IMG/VR virus record: IMGVR_UViG_3300015371_000206 | Span: 1-21,925 of that record | DNA from: a virus | DNA length: 21,925 bases | Direction: 5' to 3' (one strand) | Part shown: positions 4,901 through 13,710 of the stretch, one piece after another | Layout: each line of letters starts with the position of its first letter | Position numbering within the stretch: position 1 is the first letter of the stretch | Notes under the pieces: model-generated | What the model was told of the DNA's origin: nothing | The model's database searches: none | What the model saw: the letters and a program-made list of their open reading frames with translations, nothing else | Position numbers and translations under genes: made by a program

Positions 4901-5294
4901 ATACTGCGGTGTTGACCTGTAGCGACGCTGTCCCGAATAGCGCGTCCGTCGTGACTCGAGCGATTCCGCTCGGCCCTGCCGTGTAACCGGTCAGGTCGAT
5001 CTCTAACGACGGATTGGGGACCATGTTTGCGGTGTGGGTCGGGTCATAAATGCGTGTCCGGTTGTCGAGCGTGAAGCTCGCGGTGCCGGCGTCGATGTCT
5101 CCGAGCTCCGATTCCCGTCCGCGTGACGTCGAGAACGCGCGCAGGTCGGCGGTCGCGTCGACCCATGTCGGGTTGACCACCGCCGCGTCGTCGGTGGTGT
5201 ACATCAGCCACGCTTCGGGGTTGTTGCCCTGCCCGACGATCTGGCCGGTCCCGACGACGAACGGGATCCGGAGTTGCGTCCCGACTGTGGCCAT
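1983..5294 (-). CDS. Large minor tail protein with LamG and three carbohydrate-binding-like domains (1103 aa)
   Basis: The N-terminus (residues 1-90, with RAFSTSRGRESELGDIDAG and a FTLDNRTRIYDP-type turn) and the C-terminus (about 995-1103, ending TIDLAVSPL) match the frame of actinophage minor tail proteins that sit at the tail tip. Inserted in that frame are a jelly-roll, CBM4/9-like domain at 90-240, a LamG/concanavalin-like domain at about 340-560 (starting PTGYWPMDD, with EFTIEGWF and KLYVNGTLV), and two more jelly-roll domains at about 643-790 and 815-957. The three jelly rolls share an NP-S/G-MEVDTSGW-like start, a GSASLKV strand and a YVDAVQV-like end. This suggests adsorption to surface polysaccharide. 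The ATG follows the upstream stop by three bases with no clear ribosome binding site, so coupling is likely. Confidence 0.88.
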   Translation of the reverse strand: MATVGTQLRIPFVVGTGQIVGQGNNPEAWLMYTTDDAAVVNPTWVDATADLRAFSTSRGRESELGDIDAGTASFTLDNRTRIYDPTHTANMVPNPSLEIDLTGYTAGPSGIARVTTDALFGTASLQVNTAVSGGTNDGCVGPRVALRYGHIYTVSYYAKALPGSNGVKVDVQVNTDDGTTFLTYIHGGEITMSTSVWTRCFYTFTPPDTATNGGTIYLTLGDSQGAVNASWLVDGLQVIESGTLRAYADGSMPGYQWVGSPHNSTTATAIRPLNRWWFREQFTGETQDVFKGYAEAYEQSWPGGGWSDAETVVSCADEFKPLALGNLPTTSPPRDTYADVVAFDAPTGYWPMDDNATTRTETASPGPTLVAATAAMQTVSGFGAIVGQEPEGAFVAQHGDYLSTQGLNPGDAGDVTSLAEFTIEGWFQTDTAGVTMNLCVGPPAGSATTWRLYINAGTFTLEARNSSGTNVSIAGGTATPNLWFHVVGTIEAGTIKLYVNGTLVNSSAWSGTFAATLDANAELFVGPNVGSGSEHTYTDELAFYRRSLPIATIQNHYSAGTARGFARGQHPEARINGVLDTIGSRVPRSIRTGTNAMTGAYMVGQDPLSELVQARRADGGDAMLFVARDGTITFLNGSHRTDGNVVTNPGMEVDTSGWGANGSGTIARDTSQYFTGSASLKVVTGTGTFDGCYFFNGTAGTFVANQAYGVQARIKRTAGTGDIQIFIYAYDSSNVAIDGGMTAGYLTPTGGWDLFTGVIIAPPNADHFQLFITKGGDASVGTFYVDAVQVAPATRWNYAQEIFDDRDPSLVGQSLFNDAQSFETDTAGWTPAFFSGASGSIARDTTEHLVGVASLKMVVTVAGDSGAQSPNIYIRRPPGTLMFLSAWVKGPNGLRVYWRKLNVTDEHVGDYVTMNGGWVQVAGAYRSSSADQSQPPYFRLMAETAGTYYIDAVTLQAIQGIPYEDLTTDFSEAFLTNEWNVTATNQLVATASDATSIARYFKRSQSITDVPVSTAGVTAGMAAALVGKYKEPFPRVTKLGLTTAVPDVTEAAFRRELGDCIEVRRTPPGGGNRIDQTLFIQKIEVAGTNDRTPWTIDLAVSPL

Positions 5295-6050: not shown

Positions 6051-7904
6051 CTAGAACGCCGGCCGGCCGTTCCGCTGTTGGAAGATTTGGGCTTTGCGGC
6101 GTAGCGGGTCGATCAGCACCTCCGCGAGCTTGTTCCCATCGAGAATCAGCGACACCTCGATCGGCCCGCTCGCCGCAGCGATCCCGCCGGCCGCCGCGAA
6201 CTTCGGGAGCGGCACGACCGCCTCCGGTCCCTTCTCACCGATCATCGCCAACGTCGGCTCTTTCACGATCGCGCCGGCGGCGAGCTTCGGAATGTTGAAG
6301 TCGATCGAGCCGCCCCCGAACGTCCCGACGAGCGGAATGTGCACCTTCGGGATCGGGATGTGGATCGCGTTGAGCTTGTCGATGATCCCGTTGATCGGGT
6401 CGATGATCGCGTGCAGAAGACCCGACCCGAGACCTTCCAGCCCCTTGAGGATGCTCGACGCGATCCCCTTCCCGAACGACAACGCGGCCGACAGGACACC
6501 GGTCACCGAACCGATCGCATCGACGATGGCGTTCTTGAGCCATGTCCCGATGCTTGTCCCCCATCCCTTGATCGTCTCGATCTTCGCGGCGATCGCGGAG
6601 CCGATGTTGTTGATGACATCCCACGCGGCGTTCCCGACGCCAAGGATCGAGTTGACGACGGCGTTCTTGATCCAGTTGCCGACGTTCTCACCCCACGCCT
6701 TGACCGCCTCGATCTTCGACACGATGAACGACCCGATGTTGTTGATGATGTCCCAGACCTGGCCGGTAACACCGGTAATACCGGCGACGATCCCGTCAAG
6801 GATCGCCTTCCCGAGTTTCGTCGCGATCGTGAGGAGAGCAGTCGCCGCTGTCGTCAGCTCGGTCTTGATGAGGTCGATCTGGGTGGTGACGATTTTCTTG
6901 GCGTCTTTCCAGGCGGCCGACCAGTCGCCCTTCAACAGGTCGGTGATGAGCTTCACGACGTAGGCGACCACGACGGCGGCGTCCTCGAGCACCTTGACGA
7001 CGCCGCGGACGATCGGGCCGATCGTGTCCCAATTGTCACGGATCACGTTGACGATCTCGACGAACAGGTCAGCGAGGTTCTGAATGATCGGGGCGATCGC
7101 GGCGCGCGCCCGCCCGATGGCATCCTGGATTTCCGGCCAATGGTCGCGTAGCCATCCGATGACCTGTTGGAGGATCGGGATCGTCTTCGCGACGAGCTCG
7201 CCCATCCAGTTGTTGAACGTCTCTTTGGCGATGTTGATCTGGCCAGGCAACGTCTTGCCGAGTGCTTCCGCTGACCCGCCGAACTCTTTGTTGAGCTCGT
7301 GGAGGATCACCTTCTGGGCGCCCATCGTGTCACCCGACGCAACCATCGCCTTGATCGACTTTTTCTGCGCCTCGGTGAACGTCACGCCGACACGCGAGAG
7401 CGCACCGATTCCTTTGACCGGGTCGTTGATCGCCTTCCCGAGCATGACCGACGCATGGGTCATGTCCTGGCCGGTCGCGACGCTCATGTCGACGAGCGTC
7501 TTGGTGGTTTGGTTGAAGATGTCGTTGCCTTTGCCGACCTCGTTCCGGATGTTCGTGAACGTGAGCAGCATGTTCTCCCCGGATTTGATCGCCTCATCGT
7601 CGATCCCAGACTTTTTCAAGAGAGACCCGGAGAGCTTGTCGATTTGGGCGGCGCTGACGTTCGCGATCCCGCCGGTCGACTTGAGCACCGCGTTCGTCTG
7701 AGCCGTGATCTTCTGCGAATCAGCGAACTCCTGGATCCCGATCTTCGCGGCAACACCGATCCCGACGAGCGCGCCGGCCACACCGGCTTTCCCGGCGATC
7801 CCGACAAGCTTCCCCATCGTGGAGTGCGACTTGTCCATCGCCTTGTCGAAGTCGCGGGTGTCCGCTGTTAGCTTCGCCTCGAGCCGGGCGACCGTCGTTG
7901 CCAT
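6051..7904 (-). CDS. Tape measure protein (617 aa)
   Basis: It sets tail length and is packed inside the tail tube. Typical marks are the VARLEAKLTADTRDFDKAM start, long helical stretches, alternating hydrophobic segments (30-56, 300-325, 350-380), and tandem motifs near 384 (WDIINNIG) and 428 (WDVINNIG), repeating every 44 residues with spaced Trp residues. The C-terminus has the GEKGPEAVVPL signature (557-567) that recurs in tape measures. At roughly 1.5 angstroms per residue the tail would be about 90 nm (family rule, not measured). The ATG shares one base with the stop of the frameshifted chaperone (TGATG), the expected gene order for siphoviruses. Confidence 0.95.
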   Translation of the reverse strand: MATTVARLEAKLTADTRDFDKAMDKSHSTMGKLVGIAGKAGVAGALVGIGVAAKIGIQEFADSQKITAQTNAVLKSTGGIANVSAAQIDKLSGSLLKKSGIDDEAIKSGENMLLTFTNIRNEVGKGNDIFNQTTKTLVDMSVATGQDMTHASVMLGKAINDPVKGIGALSRVGVTFTEAQKKSIKAMVASGDTMGAQKVILHELNKEFGGSAEALGKTLPGQINIAKETFNNWMGELVAKTIPILQQVIGWLRDHWPEIQDAIGRARAAIAPIIQNLADLFVEIVNVIRDNWDTIGPIVRGVVKVLEDAAVVVAYVVKLITDLLKGDWSAAWKDAKKIVTTQIDLIKTELTTAATALLTIATKLGKAILDGIVAGITGVTGQVWDIINNIGSFIVSKIEAVKAWGENVGNWIKNAVVNSILGVGNAAWDVINNIGSAIAAKIETIKGWGTSIGTWLKNAIVDAIGSVTGVLSAALSFGKGIASSILKGLEGLGSGLLHAIIDPINGIIDKLNAIHIPIPKVHIPLVGTFGGGSIDFNIPKLAAGAIVKEPTLAMIGEKGPEAVVPLPKFAAAGGIAAASGPIEVSLILDGNKLAEVLIDPLRRKAQIFQQRNGRPAF

Positions 7905-8439
7905 CAGTTGCGCCTCGATTCGGCGGCCTTACGGGCGGCCTCTTCTGCCTGGTTCATCATGTCGGCGGCGACAACCCAGAACAACGGCGTCGTGTCTACG
8001 TCGGGAACGGGGATTCCGAGGGTGCGGGCGACGGCAAAGTGACCTGCCCATTCGGGAATGTCGGCACTTGCGCCACGGAGCCCGAAGACAGCATGGGTGG
8101 CGGCGCGGGTGAGTCTTTTCCCTCGGCGTCCGAAGGGACGGCGGCGCGAAGCATCTGTTGGAGCAACGCTTTCTGCGCCGGATATGACAACACCGCGATG
8201 TTCGTCACGGTCGGCGGGAACGGTGTCCCGTCGTCGTTGACGACATCCCATTCGAGCAGCACATCCGCGAGCGCCTTCGGGACCGACAGCGCGTCGGCCT
8301 GCTCGTCGCGTTCCGACGCCATCTGCGTCCAGGCCGGCGTGACCTTGTTCCGGTCGAACGTCAGCGTGATCGCGTCACCGTCACCCAGATCGACGGTCGC
8401 CGTGACCGGCTTCGGACGGGTGAGGTCACCGACGCGCAT
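7904..8439 (-). CDS. Tail assembly chaperone G-T fusion made by -1 frameshifting
   Basis: Ribosomes slipping back one base at the G_GGA_AAA heptamer (8122-8116) leave the shorter frame after Lys108 and continue at AGA (8116-8114). They read 70 further residues, RLTRAATHAVFGL... to ...AARKAAESRRN, ending at TGA 7906-7904. The fusion is 178 aa. In lambda and many siphoviruses the minor gpGT product bridges the tape measure protein and tail tube subunits during assembly and is absent from the virion. The downstream frame has no own start near the site, is open across the whole G overlap, and ends directly on the tape measure ATG. Coordinates join 8439-8116 and 8116-7904. Confidence 0.85.
7996..8439 (-). 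CDS. Tail assembly chaperone, G-like (147 aa)
   Basis: This is the unshifted product of the two-frame chaperone gene. The N-terminal part (1-100) has the usual features of actinophage gpG-like proteins: VTATVDLGDGDAITLTFDRNK, a helical middle (LADVLLEWDVVNDDGTPFPP), and a YPAQKALLQQML helix. The last 40 residues are Pro/Ser-rich and low in complexity, as expected for the readthrough-free tail of a frameshifting gene. Its ATG lies 14 bases inside the end of the upstream 51-aa gene. It sits between the tail tube gene and the tape measure gene, the canonical place. It should be made in excess over the G-T fusion. Confidence 0.85.
   Translation of the reverse strand: MRVGDLTRPKPVTATVDLGDGDAITLTFDRNKVTPAWTQMASERDEQADALSVPKALADVLLEWDVVNDDGTPFPPTVTNIAVLSYPAQKALLQQMLRAAVPSDAEGKDSPAPPPMLSSGSVAQVPTFPNGQVTLPSPAPSESPFPT
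8116..8122 (-). promoter_or_regulatory. Programmed -1 frameshift slippery site GGGAAAA
   Basis: The minus strand reads GAG GGA AAA GAC in the zero frame, giving a canonical X XXY YYZ heptamer G GGA AAA. Slippage moves reading into the frame that runs to the tape measure start. The next 20 bases are rich in C and G, and a stimulatory structure is possible, but no clear hairpin was established by eye. Confidence 0.85.
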
Positions 8440-8808: not shown

Positions 8809-9795
8809 CTAGAGGGCCGCCGTCTTGTTCTGCAACCCGATCGTCATGTACTTCGCCCAGCCGGCGTCATAGACCGCGTCGAACGTGTAGGTGAGCACCT
8901 TGACGCCGTCGTTGTCGTCGAACGCCTTGATGTCCGACACCTTGCCGGCCATGTCGATCAGCATTTGGTATTTCGCGGTCGTCGATCCGGCGTTGACGGT
9001 CGACACCGCCGACAGCCGGATGAACTGTGTCGTGCCGGCGCGCGCGTTGACGAGCTGCGCCATCCCCTGCGTGTCGGCTTCAAGGGTCAACTCCATCTGA
9101 ATCGTCGGCTCGGTCTCGACGTGCGACAGATAGGACGGAGCAGTCGAGTTGATCGGCCACACCGGGTTGAAGCGATTCTGGACCCGCAGGATCGCGTTGA
9201 AATCGCGGGTCATCTTCGTCGTGCCGATCGCGCCCGACGTCGGGTCGATGAACACGTCCAGATGGGTCGGCAGGATCGGGACATCCTCTACCGCTGTCGG
9301 TGACCCGGTCAGCGCGATGTTGTCCTGGATGTTCTGGCCGATCATGTCGCCGGTCATCGTGACGCCGTCGGTCCTGTTGAACGTCACTTCGAGGCCGGTG
9401 AAGAGACAGTAGGCGGCCTTCTGGGCGCGCGTCGCGGAGCCGGCTTCGACGGTGTAGGTCTTGACGGTGTCCTCGGTGCGGGCGGCCGGGTTGAACGTCC
9501 ACAGCTTCGCGGTCGTGTCGACGGTGGTCGGCGTCACGTTCGCGAGCAGGGAACAGAACGGGTAGATGAGCTCCGAGTAGGAACCCTGGCCGGACACCTT
9601 CCATTCAGTGAAGTCCTTGTTGGGGACGACTGTCCCGGCGACTTTCTGACCCATCGGGCGGAACCGGGAGAACCCGATCGAGATCCCCGGCTCGAGGCTC
9701 AGGTAAGAGAGCAGCTTGCCGGCGGCGACTCCGGTGCCGGGCGTGGTCTCAGCGCCGATCTGGACGCCGCTAGCAACGGTTGCGAGTTCCGGCAT
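8809..9795 (-). CDS. Major tail (tube) protein (328 aa)
   Basis: It polymerises into the tail tube through which DNA passes. The start MPELATVASGVQIGAETTPG followed by alternating beta strands (KLLSYLSLEPGI, then TGLEVTFNRTDGVTMTGDMIG in the middle) is typical of siphovirus tube proteins, as are length and position before the chaperones and tape measure. A strong GGAGGTGA ribosome binding site (9809-9802) lies six bases before the ATG, in contrast to most genes here, consistent with high production. The gene is separated from the tail-terminator gene by a plus-strand cassette, so it starts its own block. One 15-bp boundary motif lies 35 bases upstream of its ATG. Confidence 0.93.
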   Translation of the reverse strand: MPELATVASGVQIGAETTPGTGVAAGKLLSYLSLEPGISIGFSRFRPMGQKVAGTVVPNKDFTEWKVSGQGSYSELIYPFCSLLANVTPTTVDTTAKLWTFNPAARTEDTVKTYTVEAGSATRAQKAAYCLFTGLEVTFNRTDGVTMTGDMIGQNIQDNIALTGSPTAVEDVPILPTHLDVFIDPTSGAIGTTKMTRDFNAILRVQNRFNPVWPINSTAPSYLSHVETEPTIQMELTLEADTQGMAQLVNARAGTTQFIRLSAVSTVNAGSTTAKYQMLIDMAGKVSDIKAFDDNDGVKVLTYTFDAVYDAGWAKYMTIGLQNKTAAL

Positions 9796-9801
9796 TGCCT
9801 G

Positions 9802-9809
9802 TCACCTCC
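9802..9809 (-). promoter_or_regulatory. Strong ribosome binding site of the tail tube gene
   Basis: GGAGGTGA on the minus strand, six bases before the ATG at 9795. It is noted because most minus-strand genes in the window rely on overlaps and have weak or no such sites. Confidence 0.85.
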
Positions 9810-9830
9810 AAGGGTGAATCGGTTGTCTTT

Positions 9831-9845
9831 GGTTGGTCGGCTAGC
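9831..9845 (-). repeat. 15-bp module-boundary motif, copy 2
   Basis: Exact GCTAGCCGACCAACC on the minus strand, in the leader of the tail tube gene and 35 bases from its ATG. It also lies just upstream of the divergent plus-strand promoter. Confidence 0.85.
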
Positions 9846-9857
9846 CGCGCCTTCCCC

Positions 9858-9885
9858 TTGACATCTGAGATCATGGTGATATGGT
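9858..9885 (+). promoter_or_regulatory. Promoter of the plus-strand cassette
   Basis: TTGACA (9858-9863), a 16-bp spacer and TATGGT (9880-9885, four of six consensus bases). Six bases later is an in-frame ATG (9892), so the transcript may begin at or next to it and be leaderless. The geometry (six bases between -10 and start codon) is the same as in the promoter at 432-460. Confidence 0.7.
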
Positions 9886-9894
9886 TCAGATATG
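9863..9894. promoter_or_regulatory. Candidate operator within the cassette promoter
   Basis: ATCTGA (9863-9868) and its exact reverse complement TCAGAT (9886-9891) flank the spacer and -10. Inside them lies ATCA-TGG-TGAT (9870-9880). GATATG also occurs twice, 11 bases apart (9878-9883 and 9889-9894), about one helical turn. Arc-type repressors bind paired half-sites on one DNA face, and an Arc-like protein is encoded in this cassette, so autorepression is plausible. Confidence 0.5.
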
Positions 9895-9980
9895 ACCACG
9901 ACAGGAAAGGAAGGCAAAACCATGCTCCTCGATGAGGCACAACAGGCCGCCGATGAGGCGAAGGCTCAGCGGATCGCGGA
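9893..9980 (+). repeat. 88-bp direct repeat, copy 1
   Basis: Exact repeat of 10160-10247, offset 267 bases. With two mismatches the similarity runs on to 9995. It contains the leader, the ribosome binding site AGGAAAGGAAGG (9903-9914), and the first codons of the gene at 9922. The repeat begins one base into the predicted transcript start. Confidence 0.95.
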
Positions 9981-10104
9981 TCGGATCAAGACGCGCGACC
10001 CTTGGGGGATCCAGGCGATCCGCGAGGAGACAGCCGCGATCAGACGGACCATACAACGATTCGCGGACGCTCGCGAGCTCGAGGAGAAAGAGGAGTTGCA
10101 ATGA
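9922..10104 (+). CDS. Cassette gene 1: charged helical protein (60 aa)
   Basis: A highly charged, Ala/Glu/Arg-rich helical protein starting MLLDEAQQAADEAKAQ and ending ELEEKEELQ. The start chosen has a purine-rich ribosome binding site seven bases upstream; an in-frame ATG ten codons earlier (9892) lies at the predicted transcription start and could give a leaderless 70-aa form. Its first 19 residues are identical to those of cassette gene 2, owing to the 88-bp repeat. The TGA overlaps the ATG of the truncated Arc-like frame as ATGA. No known family; coiled-coil character suggests oligomerisation. It may be a partner or regulator (inference). Confidence 0.7.
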   Translation: MLLDEAQQAADEAKAQRIADRIKTRDPWGIQAIREETAAIRRTIQRFADARELEEKEELQ

Positions 10105-10202
10105 CCGTCCGGATGGAGGTCAAGGGGTACGCGTTGCGTCTGCCGCTCGACTTGAAGCGTGACCACGACAGGAAAGGAAGGCAAAACCATGCTCCTCGAT
10201 GA
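10101..10202 (+). pseudogene. Truncated Arc-like repressor gene
   Basis: The 33-aa frame begins MTVRMEVKGYALRLPLDLKR. This matches the start of the intact Arc-like protein at 11345 (GYALRLPLDLKR identical; 35 bp, 10128-10162, identical in DNA). It then runs into the second copy of the 88-bp repeat in an unrelated frame and ends after 13 residues. It keeps the DNA-contacting strand but lacks both helices needed for dimerisation, so it is most likely a relic. It begins with an ATGA overlap and shares GGAGTTGCAATGACCG with the junction before the intact copy. It may still be translated and help couple the next gene, whose ATG lies within its last codons. Confidence 0.8.
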
Positions 10203-10247
10203 GGCACAACAGGCCGCCGATGAGGCGAAGGCTCAGCGGATCGCGGA
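10160..10247 (+). repeat. 88-bp direct repeat, copy 2
   Basis: Exact copy of 9893-9980, joined directly to the cut-off Arc-like gene at a GTGA. It lacks the promoter but carries the ribosome binding site (10170-10181) and first codons now used by cassette gene 2. Confidence 0.95.
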
Positions 10248-10713
10248 ACGGCTCAAGACGCGGGCGAAGTACCGCGACGCGGCCGTCGAGAAGTTCGTGG
10301 CCGCGTTCGGTGAGACACCGACGCCGGTCGAGACGGGTGTCGGCAAAGAGATCGAGACGAGGAACGGCAGGACCCATGTGTCCGCCTGGTTGGAGTGTGA
10401 GGGTTTGGAGTTCATCGGAACCCACGGCCGCGGCGGGTATTTCGAGCTTCGGCTAGTGCTGACGTGCCCGACATGCGGCCGGCGGTTCGCGTCCGACGAG
10501 ACGTTCGGCCCATGGGTGACGGGAGAAGACAGCCGCCCCTACAACGTCAAGAGGCTCGCCAATGCGCTCGCGGAGCCGAAGACGTGGAAGCGGCACGAGT
10601 GCGAGGCGAACGTCTTGAAGCCGCTGCGGTATGCGATCCGTGAGGCGGCCGGCATTCTCAACATGAGCGAAGCCGAGACGGCGTCGGCGGCGCTGAGCGA
10701 GGAGGTCCGGTAG
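10189..10713 (+). CDS. Cassette gene 2: hypothetical protein with a zinc-binding motif (174 aa)
   Basis: The N-terminal 19 residues come from the 88-bp duplication. The rest is distinct: a basic helix (residues 20-42, with RLKTRAKYRDAAVEKF), a beta region (about 60-92, HVSAWLECEGLEF, later GGYFELRLVL), a CPTCGRRF knuckle (about 93-100) and a later RHECEA (about 134-139). The CxxC and H-x-C pairs could bind one zinc ion. The C-terminus is an Ala-rich helix. The ATG at 10189 is preferred for its ribosome binding site; an in-frame GTG ten codons upstream exists. No known family was recognised. A DNA- or protein-binding regulatory role is an inference from the zinc motif and the setting. Confidence 0.75.
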   Translation: MLLDEAQQAADEAKAQRIAERLKTRAKYRDAAVEKFVAAFGETPTPVETGVGKEIETRNGRTHVSAWLECEGLEFIGTHGRGGYFELRLVLTCPTCGRRFASDETFGPWVTGEDSRPYNVKRLANALAEPKTWKRHECEANVLKPLRYAIREAAGILNMSEAETASAALSEEVR

Positions 10714-10716
10714 ACG

Positions 10717-11148
10717 ATGCGCGCGACAAATGACACGGTTGAAATGAGGTTGACACCGGACGATGTCGAGAAGACAGCGGACCTGCTGGAGTTGTTCGCT
10801 GGGATCGACGAGGGTGAGAACACCGACTATGACGAAACGATGCGTCTTGCGTCGGTCTTCCGAGCCGCGACGGGGCAGATCACGCCGCCGCTCGAGCAGC
10901 CGAGCAAACCGCCGGCCTCTTGCGACTGCGGCGCCGAGATCGTTGCGGATGGCGAGTTGGGGCCGATTTGCGCTGAGGGACACGTTGGCTGTGTCTATGA
11001 GGCGATGACGGTTTACGTGGTGTTCACGCCGGAGAACGGCGATCTTGAGATTCTCGACGAAATGCCCCGCTGGAACTTCCGCGAGTTGGGCCAGCGAGTC
11101 TTTGTCGGCAACGTGAACGGCGGCGACTCGCAAGAGGTCGTGGCATGA
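10717..11148 (+). CDS. Cassette gene 3: acidic hypothetical protein with Cys cluster (143 aa)
   Basis: An acidic protein with an N-terminal beta/helix part (VEMRLTPDDVEKTADLLELF, about 8-27). A Pro-rich linker near 57-66 leads to a small Cys cluster (SCDCGAEIVADGEL then PICAEGHVGC, about 68-92), and the C-terminal part has a beta pattern (MTVYVVFTPENGDLEIL). The four or more Cys residues may form a zinc knuckle. It starts four bases after the stop of gene 2 with GGAGGT about ten bases upstream, and overlaps gene 4 as ATGA. Not recognised by family. Confidence 0.75.
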   Translation: MRATNDTVEMRLTPDDVEKTADLLELFAGIDEGENTDYDETMRLASVFRAATGQITPPLEQPSKPPASCDCGAEIVADGELGPICAEGHVGCVYEAMTVYVVFTPENGDLEILDEMPRWNFRELGQRVFVGNVNGGDSQEVVA

Positions 11149-11348
11149 CGATCGTGAAGGTCATCTGGAAAGACGAGGGTGATTTCGGGTTTATCTCGAC
11201 GTTCACCCAATCCGACCTCGATCACGTTGAGGCGAATCCGTGTTCGCTAGGGGTCCCGTATGACCCAGACCGTTTGCAGGCATACGGAACCGTTGAGGAT
11301 GCGCGCGCGATCGCGGTCGAGCATGACGCTGTTTTGGAGTTGCAATGA
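11145..11348 (+). CDS. Cassette gene 4: 67-aa hypothetical protein
   Basis: A small acidic protein, MTIVKVIWKDEGDFGFIST, with later DPDRLQAYGTVEDARAIAVE, giving a beta-then-helix pattern. It is placed between gene 3 and the Arc-like gene with ATGA overlaps on both sides, so it is translated as part of the chain. Its last bases and the start of the following Arc-like gene share GGAGTTGCAATGACCG with the junction at 10093-10108, which suggests that the gene 1/Arc-relic junction and the gene 4/Arc junction have a common origin. Function unknown. Confidence 0.75.
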   Translation: MTIVKVIWKDEGDFGFISTFTQSDLDHVEANPCSLGVPYDPDRLQAYGTVEDARAIAVEHDAVLELQ

Positions 11349-11500
11349 CCGCCCGTCAGGAAATCAGGGGTTACGCGTTGCGTCTGCCGCTCGACTTGAA
11401 GCGTGAGCTTGAGGCGGCGGCGGCGAAGAATCAGCGCAGCCTCAACTCAGAGATCATCGTGCGTCTACGCGCGAGCCTGGAAGGTGGTTACCGGCGATGA
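11345..11500 (+). CDS. Arc-like ribbon-helix-helix repressor (51 aa)
   Basis: Layout and sequence match the Arc family: strand GYALRLPLDLKR (9-20), helix A ELEAAAAKNQR (21-31), the SLNSEI turn and helix start (32-37; P22 Arc has SVNSEI), and helix B IVRLRASLE (38-46). Length (51 aa) is close to P22 Arc (53). Such proteins bind DNA as dimers or paired dimers through the strand and repress transcription. It is coupled by ATGA overlaps to genes 4 and 6. The likely target is the palindromic promoter at 9858-9885, giving feedback control of the cassette, and possibly phage late or lysogeny promoters elsewhere. A truncated paralogue lies upstream. Confidence 0.88.
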   Translation: MTARQEIRGYALRLPLDLKRELEAAAAKNQRSLNSEIIVRLRASLEGGYRR

Positions 11501-11649
11501 CGATCACGCAGGCGTTGTTTCGCGCCGCCCGGCTGTCCGCGACGATGCGGGCGGTGTCGAAGGGACCGGGAGCGGTGGGGAAGCGGATGGTGCGGGTGCA
11601 GGTCGGCAGGATGTGGGGCCGATCGGGGATCCCGCGTTGGCCGCGCTGA
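11497..11649 (+). CDS. Cassette gene 6: small basic protein (50 aa)
   Basis: A strongly basic, Arg/Lys/Gly-rich protein, MTITQALFRAARLSATMRAV then GPGAVGKRMVRVQVG, ending RSGIPRWPR. There are no acidic residues at all, which suggests binding to nucleic acid or membranes. The ATG overlaps the Arc-like stop as ATGA, and a terminator hairpin follows 50 bases after the stop, making it the last gene of the cassette. No family was recognised; codon use and the overlap support a real gene. Confidence 0.7.
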   Translation: MTITQALFRAARLSATMRAVSKGPGAVGKRMVRVQVGRMWGRSGIPRWPR

Positions 11650-11698
11650 CCGGTATCGTTCGCAGCCGTTAGAAGGGGAGTCCTGCTCGCAGTCGATG

Positions 11699-11728
11699 AG
11701 AGACCCGGCCGGACCGGGTCTCTTGTCG
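11699..11728. terminator. Hairpin terminator between convergent operons
   Basis: AGAGACCCGG (11699-11708) and its complement CCGGGTCTCT (11714-11723) give a 10-bp stem with a five-base loop, followed on the plus strand by TGTCGTT. The stem works on either strand. It ends cassette transcription and lies seven bases past the stop of the tail-terminator gene, so it may also end transcripts of the head operon. The U-tract is short, so strength is uncertain. Confidence 0.8.
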
Positions 11729-11730
11729 TT

Positions 11731-12159
11731 CTAGAGCGCGTGCGCCCGGACGCGGTAGATGCCGCCGACGTGCATGAACAGGTCGCCGCCCTCGATCGTC
11801 TCGTCGGTGAACGACTCTTCCCGGAACGCATGCACCTGGATCGACGCGTTCTGCCCCTCGTGTTTGTGTAGCAGCGTGTCGAGCCGGTCACCGATCGCGT
11901 TCGCGGCCGACCAGTCGGGCTGTCCTGAGCCGCGCCAATGGACGATCCCGCGGATCAGGAACGTCATGTCCGCCCAGACCCGGAACAGGTTGACGACGTA
12001 GACGTCGTTGGCGTCCTGACGGTCGATCTTGACGGCCGGGAACGGTGCCGACTGTGGCACCGATCGCAACCAGACACCCGATTCGAGAAGGCCGGCGAGC
12101 GTCGCGTCTGCGGTCAGTAGATCGAGCAGATACGTTTGGCAGGCGGCCTCTTCATTCAT
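11731..12159 (-). CDS. Tail terminator / tail completion candidate (142 aa)
   Basis: Size, order and sequence style fit the DUF3168/gpU-like proteins that cap the tail tube and join it to the head. It begins MNEEAACQTYLLDLLTADAT with a helix, then beta strands with PFPAVKIDRQDANDVYVV, a WADMTFLIRGIVHW stretch, and a C-terminal GGIYRVRAHAL strand. It follows the gp10-like and 60-aa genes and would normally be followed directly by the tail tube gene; here the plus-strand cassette intervenes. Its 5' end overlaps the preceding gene by eight bases, and no clear ribosome binding site is present, so translation is probably coupled. Confidence 0.75.
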   Translation of the reverse strand: MNEEAACQTYLLDLLTADATLAGLLESGVWLRSVPQSAPFPAVKIDRQDANDVYVVNLFRVWADMTFLIRGIVHWRGSGQPDWSAANAIGDRLDTLLHKHEGQNASIQVHAFREESFTDETIEGGDLFMHVGGIYRVRAHAL

Positions 12160-12334
12160 CGGTCGGCTGGAACCCGAACGGCAGACGGTTCTTCTCGCGT
12201 CTCTTCGCCGCCGCTTTCTGTTGGGGGTTCATTTCGCGGGTCGTAACGGCACCGATGTCGGGCGGTATCACCTTGACCGCCGCGTCACCCGACTCGATCC
12301 GGCCTTGCTCTTCCACCACGGCACCTTGGGTCAT
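12152..12334 (-). CDS. 60-aa hypothetical protein between connector genes
   Basis: A short protein, MTQGAVVEEQGRIESGDAAV, with a basic C-terminal part (QQKAAAKRREKNRLPFG). Its ATG overlaps the stop of the gp10-like gene (ATGA) and its end overlaps the tail-terminator start by eight bases; the two-sided overlaps support a coding gene. There is no domain, and it is likely unfolded in part. It could be a small neck or assembly factor, but this is unsupported beyond position. Confidence 0.65.
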   Translation of the reverse strand: MTQGAVVEEQGRIESGDAAVKVIPPDIGAVTTREMNPQQKAAAKRREKNRLPFGFQPTDE

Positions 12335-12699: not shown

Positions 12700-13710
12700 C
12701 TATCCGAGGTTGACCTCGCGGTAACTCCATGCGGCGGCGATCGACGCGGCCGGCAGGGTGAGCAGCCGTTGTGATCCGCCGGCCATGATGACGGTCGTTC
12801 CGCCCTCCCCGGCACTCTGGCCGGTTTCGCTGAGGTCCTGCCGATAATGCTCAACGTCGCGGTCGTAGATGGCGGCGATGGCGTCGAGTGCGGCCTGTCG
12901 AATGTTGCCCGGCACCGCCGGGAACCCCCATGTGCCGGTGACCGCGATCCGCATCCCGGCCGACAGCGTGATGACGGTCGGGTGGAACTCCAATTCGGTG
13001 ATCGGCTCCCACGGCTTCCGGACCATCGGCCGGCCGGTGACGAGGTTCGTGGCGGGACTGGCGAGCACCGTCGTCCAGTCGGTGTCTAGGATCTGGACGG
13101 CCGTGAACGACGTCAGGTCACCGATCGCGACGCGGCGCCGGTTGATGTTGAGATCACCGACGTAGTCACCGTCGATGTAGCGGGGGCGGCGTAGCCCGAT
13201 CTCTGGAACCTCGAACGTCCTGGTTGCCGGGTTCGTCCCGTTCGCTTTGAACTCGCGTTCGGCCTCCTGATGGAGGCGATCCGAGACGTCGTTGATGATC
13301 CTGGCGAGCTCGAGATCGTTGGATGTGTCGACGTTCTGTTGGTTCAGCCAATCTTTCGTTTCAGCGAGACCGACGAGCGCGCGCGGGTCGAGCGGCGCGA
13401 AGAACTCGGACGGGTCGACGATCGCCTCTTGGTCTTCGGTGGCGGCGGCGGCGCCGGTCCCCTCGAACCGGGAGAACCAGTAGCCCTGAGCTGTCAGCGG
13501 AACCGAATACTTGAAGACCCCCGGCCCGACCCTTGTGATCCCCGACCCGCCGGTTGAGCCTGAGACCGGCCCGACGGTGGTGATCGTGCCGGCCGGATCC
13601 TTGATCTTGACGGTGACGTTGGTCGGGTCGGTGGGGGTCCCGCCGACCGTGAACGTCGCCTGAGGCGTCCAGATGTCGCCTTGGTCGTAGTGGGTGATCT
13701 TGACGGCCAT
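12700..13710 (-). CDS. Head-tail connector with an N-terminal Ig-like domain (336 aa)
   Basis: Residues 1-98 form a beta-sandwich-like domain (DIWTPQATFTVGG, NVTVKIKDPAGTI, GVFKYSVPLTAQGYWFSRF). From about 108 a gp6-like connector follows, with ALVGLAETKDWLNQQ, the long helix SNDLELARIINDVSDRLHQE (about 130-149), GMRIAVTGTWGF and a C-terminal QAALDAIAAIYDRDVE helix (about 284-299). The connector half forms a ring under the portal and contacts the neck. Ig-like modules in phage structural proteins often bind weakly to cell-surface glycans (general knowledge). The ATG at 13710 has no Shine-Dalgarno sequence; the 15-bp boundary motif ends nine bases upstream. Both halves lie in one uninterrupted frame. 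Confidence 0.85.
   Translation of the reverse strand: MAVKITHYDQGDIWTPQATFTVGGTPTDPTNVTVKIKDPAGTITTVGPVSGSTGGSGITRVGPGVFKYSVPLTAQGYWFSRFEGTGAAAATEDQEAIVDPSEFFAPLDPRALVGLAETKDWLNQQNVDTSNDLELARIINDVSDRLHQEAEREFKANGTNPATRTFEVPEIGLRRPRYIDGDYVGDLNINRRRVAIGDLTSFTAVQILDTDWTTVLASPATNLVTGRPMVRKPWEPITELEFHPTVITLSAGMRIAVTGTWGFPAVPGNIRQAALDAIAAIYDRDVEHYRQDLSETGQSAGEGGTTVIMAGGSQRLLTLPAASIAAAWSYREVNLG

Follow-up and report, generated by a model that had tools for sequence, protein, structure and literature searches.

The window, a 21,925-bp stretch of viral DNA, carries between its tail-terminator and tail-tube genes an antisense cassette that is probably a moron of modular make-up, governed by an Arc-like repressor that limits its own synthesis, in a clade of temperate siphophages of the HK97 type. 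The moron would be transcribed on its own as an accessory unit, on the strand opposite the late operon, with one near-consensus promoter driving the passenger genes and, close to the end of the operon, the gene of an Arc-like RHH protein. We infer that this protein most likely binds an operator in its own promoter, as Arc does, keeping output low and autoregulated, and that the passengers are made in the prophage, at a time when the late operon is off. Within the clade, the RHH gene would be the constant core and the passengers the variable part. At the sequence level, this reading is supported by the position of the cassette, its composite structure, a promoter-like site with leaderless spacing, the family of the RHH protein, conservation of the site, swapping of cassettes, and temperate relatives.

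An antisense operon between two tail genes

All structural genes of the window (amidase, tape measure, tube, terminator, neck, HK97-type capsid, prohead protease, portal, and terminase) lie on the minus strand. Between the tube gene (8809–9795, minus strand) and the terminator gene (11731–12159, minus strand), an operon of ORFs A1, A2, B, C, RHH, and D occupies positions 9858–11728 of the plus strand, as an earlier sequence-only reading had recognized in describing a self-contained cassette on the opposite strand. A1 (9892–10104) encodes 70 amino acids (aa) from the ATG at 9892; an alternative start at ATG 9922, behind an SD-like AGGAAAGGAAGG (9903–9914), would give 60 aa. A2 (10189–10713) contains a zinc-ribbon-like CPTC...HEC arrangement, and its similarity to Pfam zf-C2HC_2 (E = 0.004) is under the cut-off; the start at ATG 10189 is preferred for this ORF, giving 174 aa, the length assigned to it earlier. 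B (10717–11148; 143 aa) has four clustered cysteines (CDC...C...C) and is followed by C (11145–11348; 67 aa), the RHH gene (11345–11500; 51 aa), and D (11497–11649; 50 aa, basic). As read from the sequence, ATGA overlaps join A1 to a truncated RHH gene described below (RHH1′), B to C, C to the RHH gene, and the stop of the latter to D.

A codon model trained on the late genes favored the plus-strand frames of A1, A2, B, C, and RHH and gave negative scores to the long antisense ORFs opposite the cassette. The coding signal was weakest for D; of the five short ORFs proposed earlier besides the RHH gene, A1, A2, B, and C are thus codon-supported, and D is a weak candidate. The two cysteine-containing proteins, A2 and B, had been put forward as effectors. 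This proposal gained no support: no relatives of either were detected in viral contigs, isolated phages, Pfam, PHROGs, or PADLOC, and single-sequence AlphaFold models (pLDDT of 48 for A2 and 38 for B) were too poor for fold searches. The terminator assigned to the cassette corresponds to a real 15-bp hairpin between the convergent operons (11694–11728, plus strand; z = −3.7); however, it lacks a T-run and has no equivalent in the five RHH-carrying relatives, being present in the window alone.

The composite nature of the operon had been overlooked. A segment containing the A leader and N terminus (9893–9995, plus strand) occurs again at 10160–10262 (plus strand) with 98% identity, and a second direct repeat, D2, links 10092–10162 to 11336–11406, at the start of the RHH gene, with 89% identity. 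Repeat D2 and phmmer both point to a truncated first RHH gene at 10101–10158 (plus strand), of which only the β-strand part is left. Its RHH sequence breaks off after the DNA-reading strand; a shared TGA marks the passage into the second, duplicated A leader, to which it is joined out of frame, with a stop at 10202. Because it ends after the DNA-reading strand, its product cannot fold as an RHH protein. The window therefore has one intact RHH gene, the other copy being truncated, unlike P22 with its Arc and Mnt. In the simplest reading, the cassette is a tandem composite of two related cassettes fused by recombination. The fusion would have truncated the first RHH gene and removed the second promoter, leaving both passenger sets under one promoter.

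Occupancy of the site across relatives

Relatives were collected by searching with aligned tube proteins, which yielded 80 loci. In agreement with the earlier statement that the terminator and tube genes are normally adjacent, the gap between them is ≤84 nt in 66 of 83 related contigs, a tally that includes near duplicates and one long relative counted twice; in the window, the gap is 1936 nt. The comparison of relatives, suggested earlier as a check, showed that the genes are not collinear throughout: the site is empty in these 66 contigs, and the passengers differ among the six phages that carry an RHH gene. In a tree built from 64 distinct tube rows, these six form one clade (100/100; one change), and in every member, the RHH gene lies antisense at the terminator-tube site. 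No Arc-family match was found in the 24 other records tested.

The RHH gene is the only gene conserved across the cassettes, with homologs at the same site and in the same antisense orientation in L003, L004, L011, L012, and L013. The 51-aa protein of the window matches Pfam Arc (PF03869) with 32.7 bits against a curated cut-off of 20.4 (E = 6.6e-8), as well as solved AmrZ, Arc, and Mnt chains in the PDB, which bears out its earlier designation as Arc-like; the L013 protein falls slightly under the Pfam cut-off. Thus, the clade proteins resemble the Arc/Mnt/AmrZ repressors in family and core motif (RSVNSEI in Arc, RSLNSEI in the window), but residues of the DNA-reading strand vary between clade members. 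Since these residues differ, the operators probably also differ from member to member.

Apart from the RHH gene, no gene is common to any two of the six cassettes. In L004, there is an RHH gene only, in a 193-nt gap. The cassette of L012 combines the RHH gene with that of a 52-aa Cys protein, and that of L013 combines it with the gene of a lipoprotein-type 124-aa protein; in L011, an 86-aa CxxC/CPLC protein and an 83-aa protein are encoded along with the RHH protein. The L003 cassette is one gene (7451–7906, minus strand), in which an HNH endonuclease domain is naturally fused to an Arc-like RHH domain (Pfam HNH_3, 2.9e-5; Arc, 2.1e-4; PHROG HNH, 5e-8). This fusion could suggest a homing-type element spread by the nuclease, with RHH as its DNA-binding part and the other cassettes as remnants. 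We regard such an origin as very unlikely: HNH occurs in one of the six cassettes only, and the remaining cassettes combine intact RHH genes with promoter-like sites and different passengers.

RHH proteins often serve as antitoxins, and weak matches to RHH proteins of the FitA/HicB/ParD type were seen, as might be expected of a toxin-antitoxin module in which a passenger is the toxin. However, no passenger belongs to a toxin family, the L004 RHH gene has no partner, and the partners in the other cassettes, which are not related to each other, precede the RHH gene in some phages and follow it in others. With no conserved partner gene, a toxin-antitoxin module is highly improbable, and we rejected it.

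Five distant relatives (L039, L048, L057, L062, and L065) have another kind of insert at the terminator-tube junction. Their ORFs are long (398 to 589 aa), on the sense strand, and encode proteins with signal-like N termini and Pro/Thr-rich linkers, possibly glycoside-hydrolase-like.

Among 50,697 isolated phage records, the tube and large terminase found no matches, and the portal found distant ones only. A search of 84,980 species genomes returned a single distant relative, a 3.4-kb contig of an Armatimonadota metagenome-assembled genome (MAG) with an empty terminator-tube site. A tyrosine integrase is encoded in all four long relatives; the window, itself a fragment, contains no integrase match, and its phage would be temperate judging from these relatives. 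Three of the four also have a divergent HTH_3 gene pair away from the cassette. Such a pair is a usual immunity switch. Since the integrase and, in three cases, the divergent pair are found in the long relatives, a conventional switch probably exists, and the cassette would not be the main immunity region.

Promoter-like site and translation start

The cassette had been credited with its own promoter, and a promoter-like site, TTGACA-16 nt-TATGGT, is present at 9858–9885 (plus strand), where its −10 element ends 6 nt before the ATG at 9892. It is the only sigma-70-like match on either strand of the 9600–12300 region, for which shuffled sequences give 0.2 matches. In five of the six cassettes, a −10-like hexamer ends 6 to 7 nt ahead of the first ATG. 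This spacing criterion was chosen after inspection; nonetheless, five of six is far beyond the background, as the same spacing is seen for 0.3 to 0.8% of all ATGs in the same contigs. The cassette ATG is also the sole ORF start in the window that has such spacing and lies outside any longer ORF. Given this spacing, the cassette mRNAs are probably leaderless.

In the window, the palindromes described along with the promoter are not above chance as a candidate operator. When the promoters of all six cassettes were considered, nearby inverted repeats were weakly enriched (joint P of about 0.03).

A comparable arrangement was observed elsewhere in the contig of L012 (G006). At 13027 on the plus strand, TTGCCA-18-TACACT lies 6 nt before the ATG of a 48-aa protein (MEIWEYKARNLKKV...GWEFVAM), which is possibly a second leaderless antisense gene in the late region.

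Cassettes are exchanged between conserved flanks

The tube proteins of L011 and L013 are 91% identical and their terminator proteins 94% identical. In contrast, the RHH proteins of the two phages share 46% identity over 35 aa, and, these distant RHH genes apart, the two cassettes are unrelated. DNA homology ends at the terminator stop codon (4274/4406) and restarts at 4941, roughly 60 nt upstream of the tube ATG, so that with near-identical flanks around unrelated cassettes, the boundaries of the swap are visible almost to the base. The window cassette likewise marks a mosaic joint, since the window terminator is closest to that of L012 (74%) and the window tube to that of L011 (68%). In the preferred reading, recombination within the tail genes conserved on both sides moves passengers from one phage to another.

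These data also bear on whether the RHH protein chiefly regulates the neighboring late genes, with the passengers incidental. It would then bind in the gap from which tube and cassette diverge, and antisense transcription would run into the terminator gene; tail genes would be kept down in the prophage or tube levels tuned. Several features are in line with such a role. L004 retains the RHH gene alone, 58 to 96 nt separate the first cassette ATG of each of the six phages from the tube side, and the cassettes are arranged tail-to-tail with the terminator gene, whose stop is overlapped by the cassette end by 4 nt in four of six. Moreover, the terminator hairpin is missing in five of six, and an influence on the amount of tailspike has been suggested for the ant moron of P22 (PMC2629481). 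However, a regulator tied to the tube and terminator genes should be conserved with them, and between L011 and L013, the RHH gene and promoter were swapped wholesale while the tube and terminator remained 91 to 94% identical. We therefore consider it unlikely that late-gene regulation is the chief function.

A repeat located ahead of late genes

The minus strand of the window contains four exact copies of CTAGCCGACCAACC (1976–1963, 9844–9831, 13733–13720, and 19259–19246). All are located in gaps just before genes, those of the amidase, the tube, the 12700 gene, and the protease, where none is expected by chance; the copy at 9844–9831 flanks the cassette boundary on its tube side. Relatives have variants of it: CTAGCCGAAAACC in G001 and G006, CTAGCCGAAGAACA in G005 and G007, and TTGGCCGAACAACC in G002. 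The 13- to 14-bp repeat is thus exact within a phage and different between phages, in several cases before orthologous genes, and exact copies are confined to the late-sense strand. In DNA pattern scans of other viral contigs, the 14-mer repeats gave single occurrences only among the matches listed, known relatives apart. In L092, whose capsid is 70% identical, three GTAGCCGATTAGCGG-type repeats form what is apparently a further variant; this record has no Arc-family match.

Of the two nearest known kinds of repeat, one is the stoperators of mycobacteriophages (PMC6550527). The other, the start-associated sequences (SAS) of cluster K phages, is restricted to nonstructural genes (PMC3203893), unlike the repeat described here, which sits in the late region. 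By analogy, the repeat may be termed stoperator- or SAS-like.

If the RHH protein read this motif, the cassette could belong to a stoperator-like second immunity system acting before late genes. Among the loci examined, clear forms of the motif and the RHH gene are found in the same six phages, and one copy adjoins the cassette. On the other hand, G005 and G007 share an identical repeat, while the RHH proteins of these two share 46% identity over 35 aa and have different reading strands (DLHVR versus RTVRF), and L092 has a motif variant without an Arc-family match. Since the repeat is shared by G005 and G007 and the reading strand is not, the RHH protein is probably not the reader of the repeat, and we give a second immunity system of this kind very little credence.

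Discussion

The moron-like character proposed for the cassette by the sequence-only reading agrees with our results: it interrupts a junction that is uninterrupted in most relatives, has its own promoter-like site, encodes an Arc-family repressor, and belongs to a temperate clade. The alternative of a second immunity or antirepressor system, taken strictly, is not supported. The P22-type antirepressor domains PF10547 and PF03374 are absent from all six records, several of which are fragments; there is one intact RHH gene, and the divergent HTH_3 pair lies elsewhere in three of the four long relatives. As had been noted, none of the accompanying proteins resembles P22 Ant, A1, A2, B, C, and D matching no antirepressor family.

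Because L004 keeps the RHH gene without passengers, the repressor may have a role beyond serving its cargo. The site could even be a dedicated plug-in site, in which RHH itself is selected throughout the clade and the passengers change, with tail genes also silenced or tuned by divergent repression and antisense transcription, beside a separate start-associated repeat system; we consider this extended scheme doubtful. The RHH-only version found in L004 makes it testable whether selection keeps the repressor itself. For the moron reading that we prefer, the value of the clade is that it presents a moron whose passengers turn over around a fixed core, an Arc-like repressor.

Like the morons of tailed phages, the cassette is an insert between genes that are adjacent in relatives, with its own promoter as judged from its sequence, and unrelated passengers are found at the same site in different phages. 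Unlike them, it has a conserved regulator as its constant core, and the relatives have no terminator hairpin.

The closest parallel is the ant moron, or immI, of P22-like phages, where mnt, arc, ant, sieA, and other genes are found between late genes 16 and 9; this one site in the late operon, where Mnt or Arc repressors are encoded, has contents of ten types in sixteen genomes (PMC2629481). The parallel with immI drawn earlier is apt for the fixed late-operon site, the RHH repressor, and the variable passengers, but not in the strict sense. Since the defining antirepressor was not found, the locus is not immI; it would work like the repressor part of immI. The clade also differs in having a single intact RHH gene, another morphotype, another site (terminator-tube rather than 16–9), and cassettes that are antisense to the late operon and whose first genes look leaderless. 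What the two systems share is a repressor of the Arc/Mnt family, a fixed position in the late operon that is empty in some relatives, and passengers in rapid flux, with some versions consisting of the repressor and one unknown gene. The cassettes parallel the P22 ant moron independently, in a group of phages for which no relative of the tube protein was detected among isolates.
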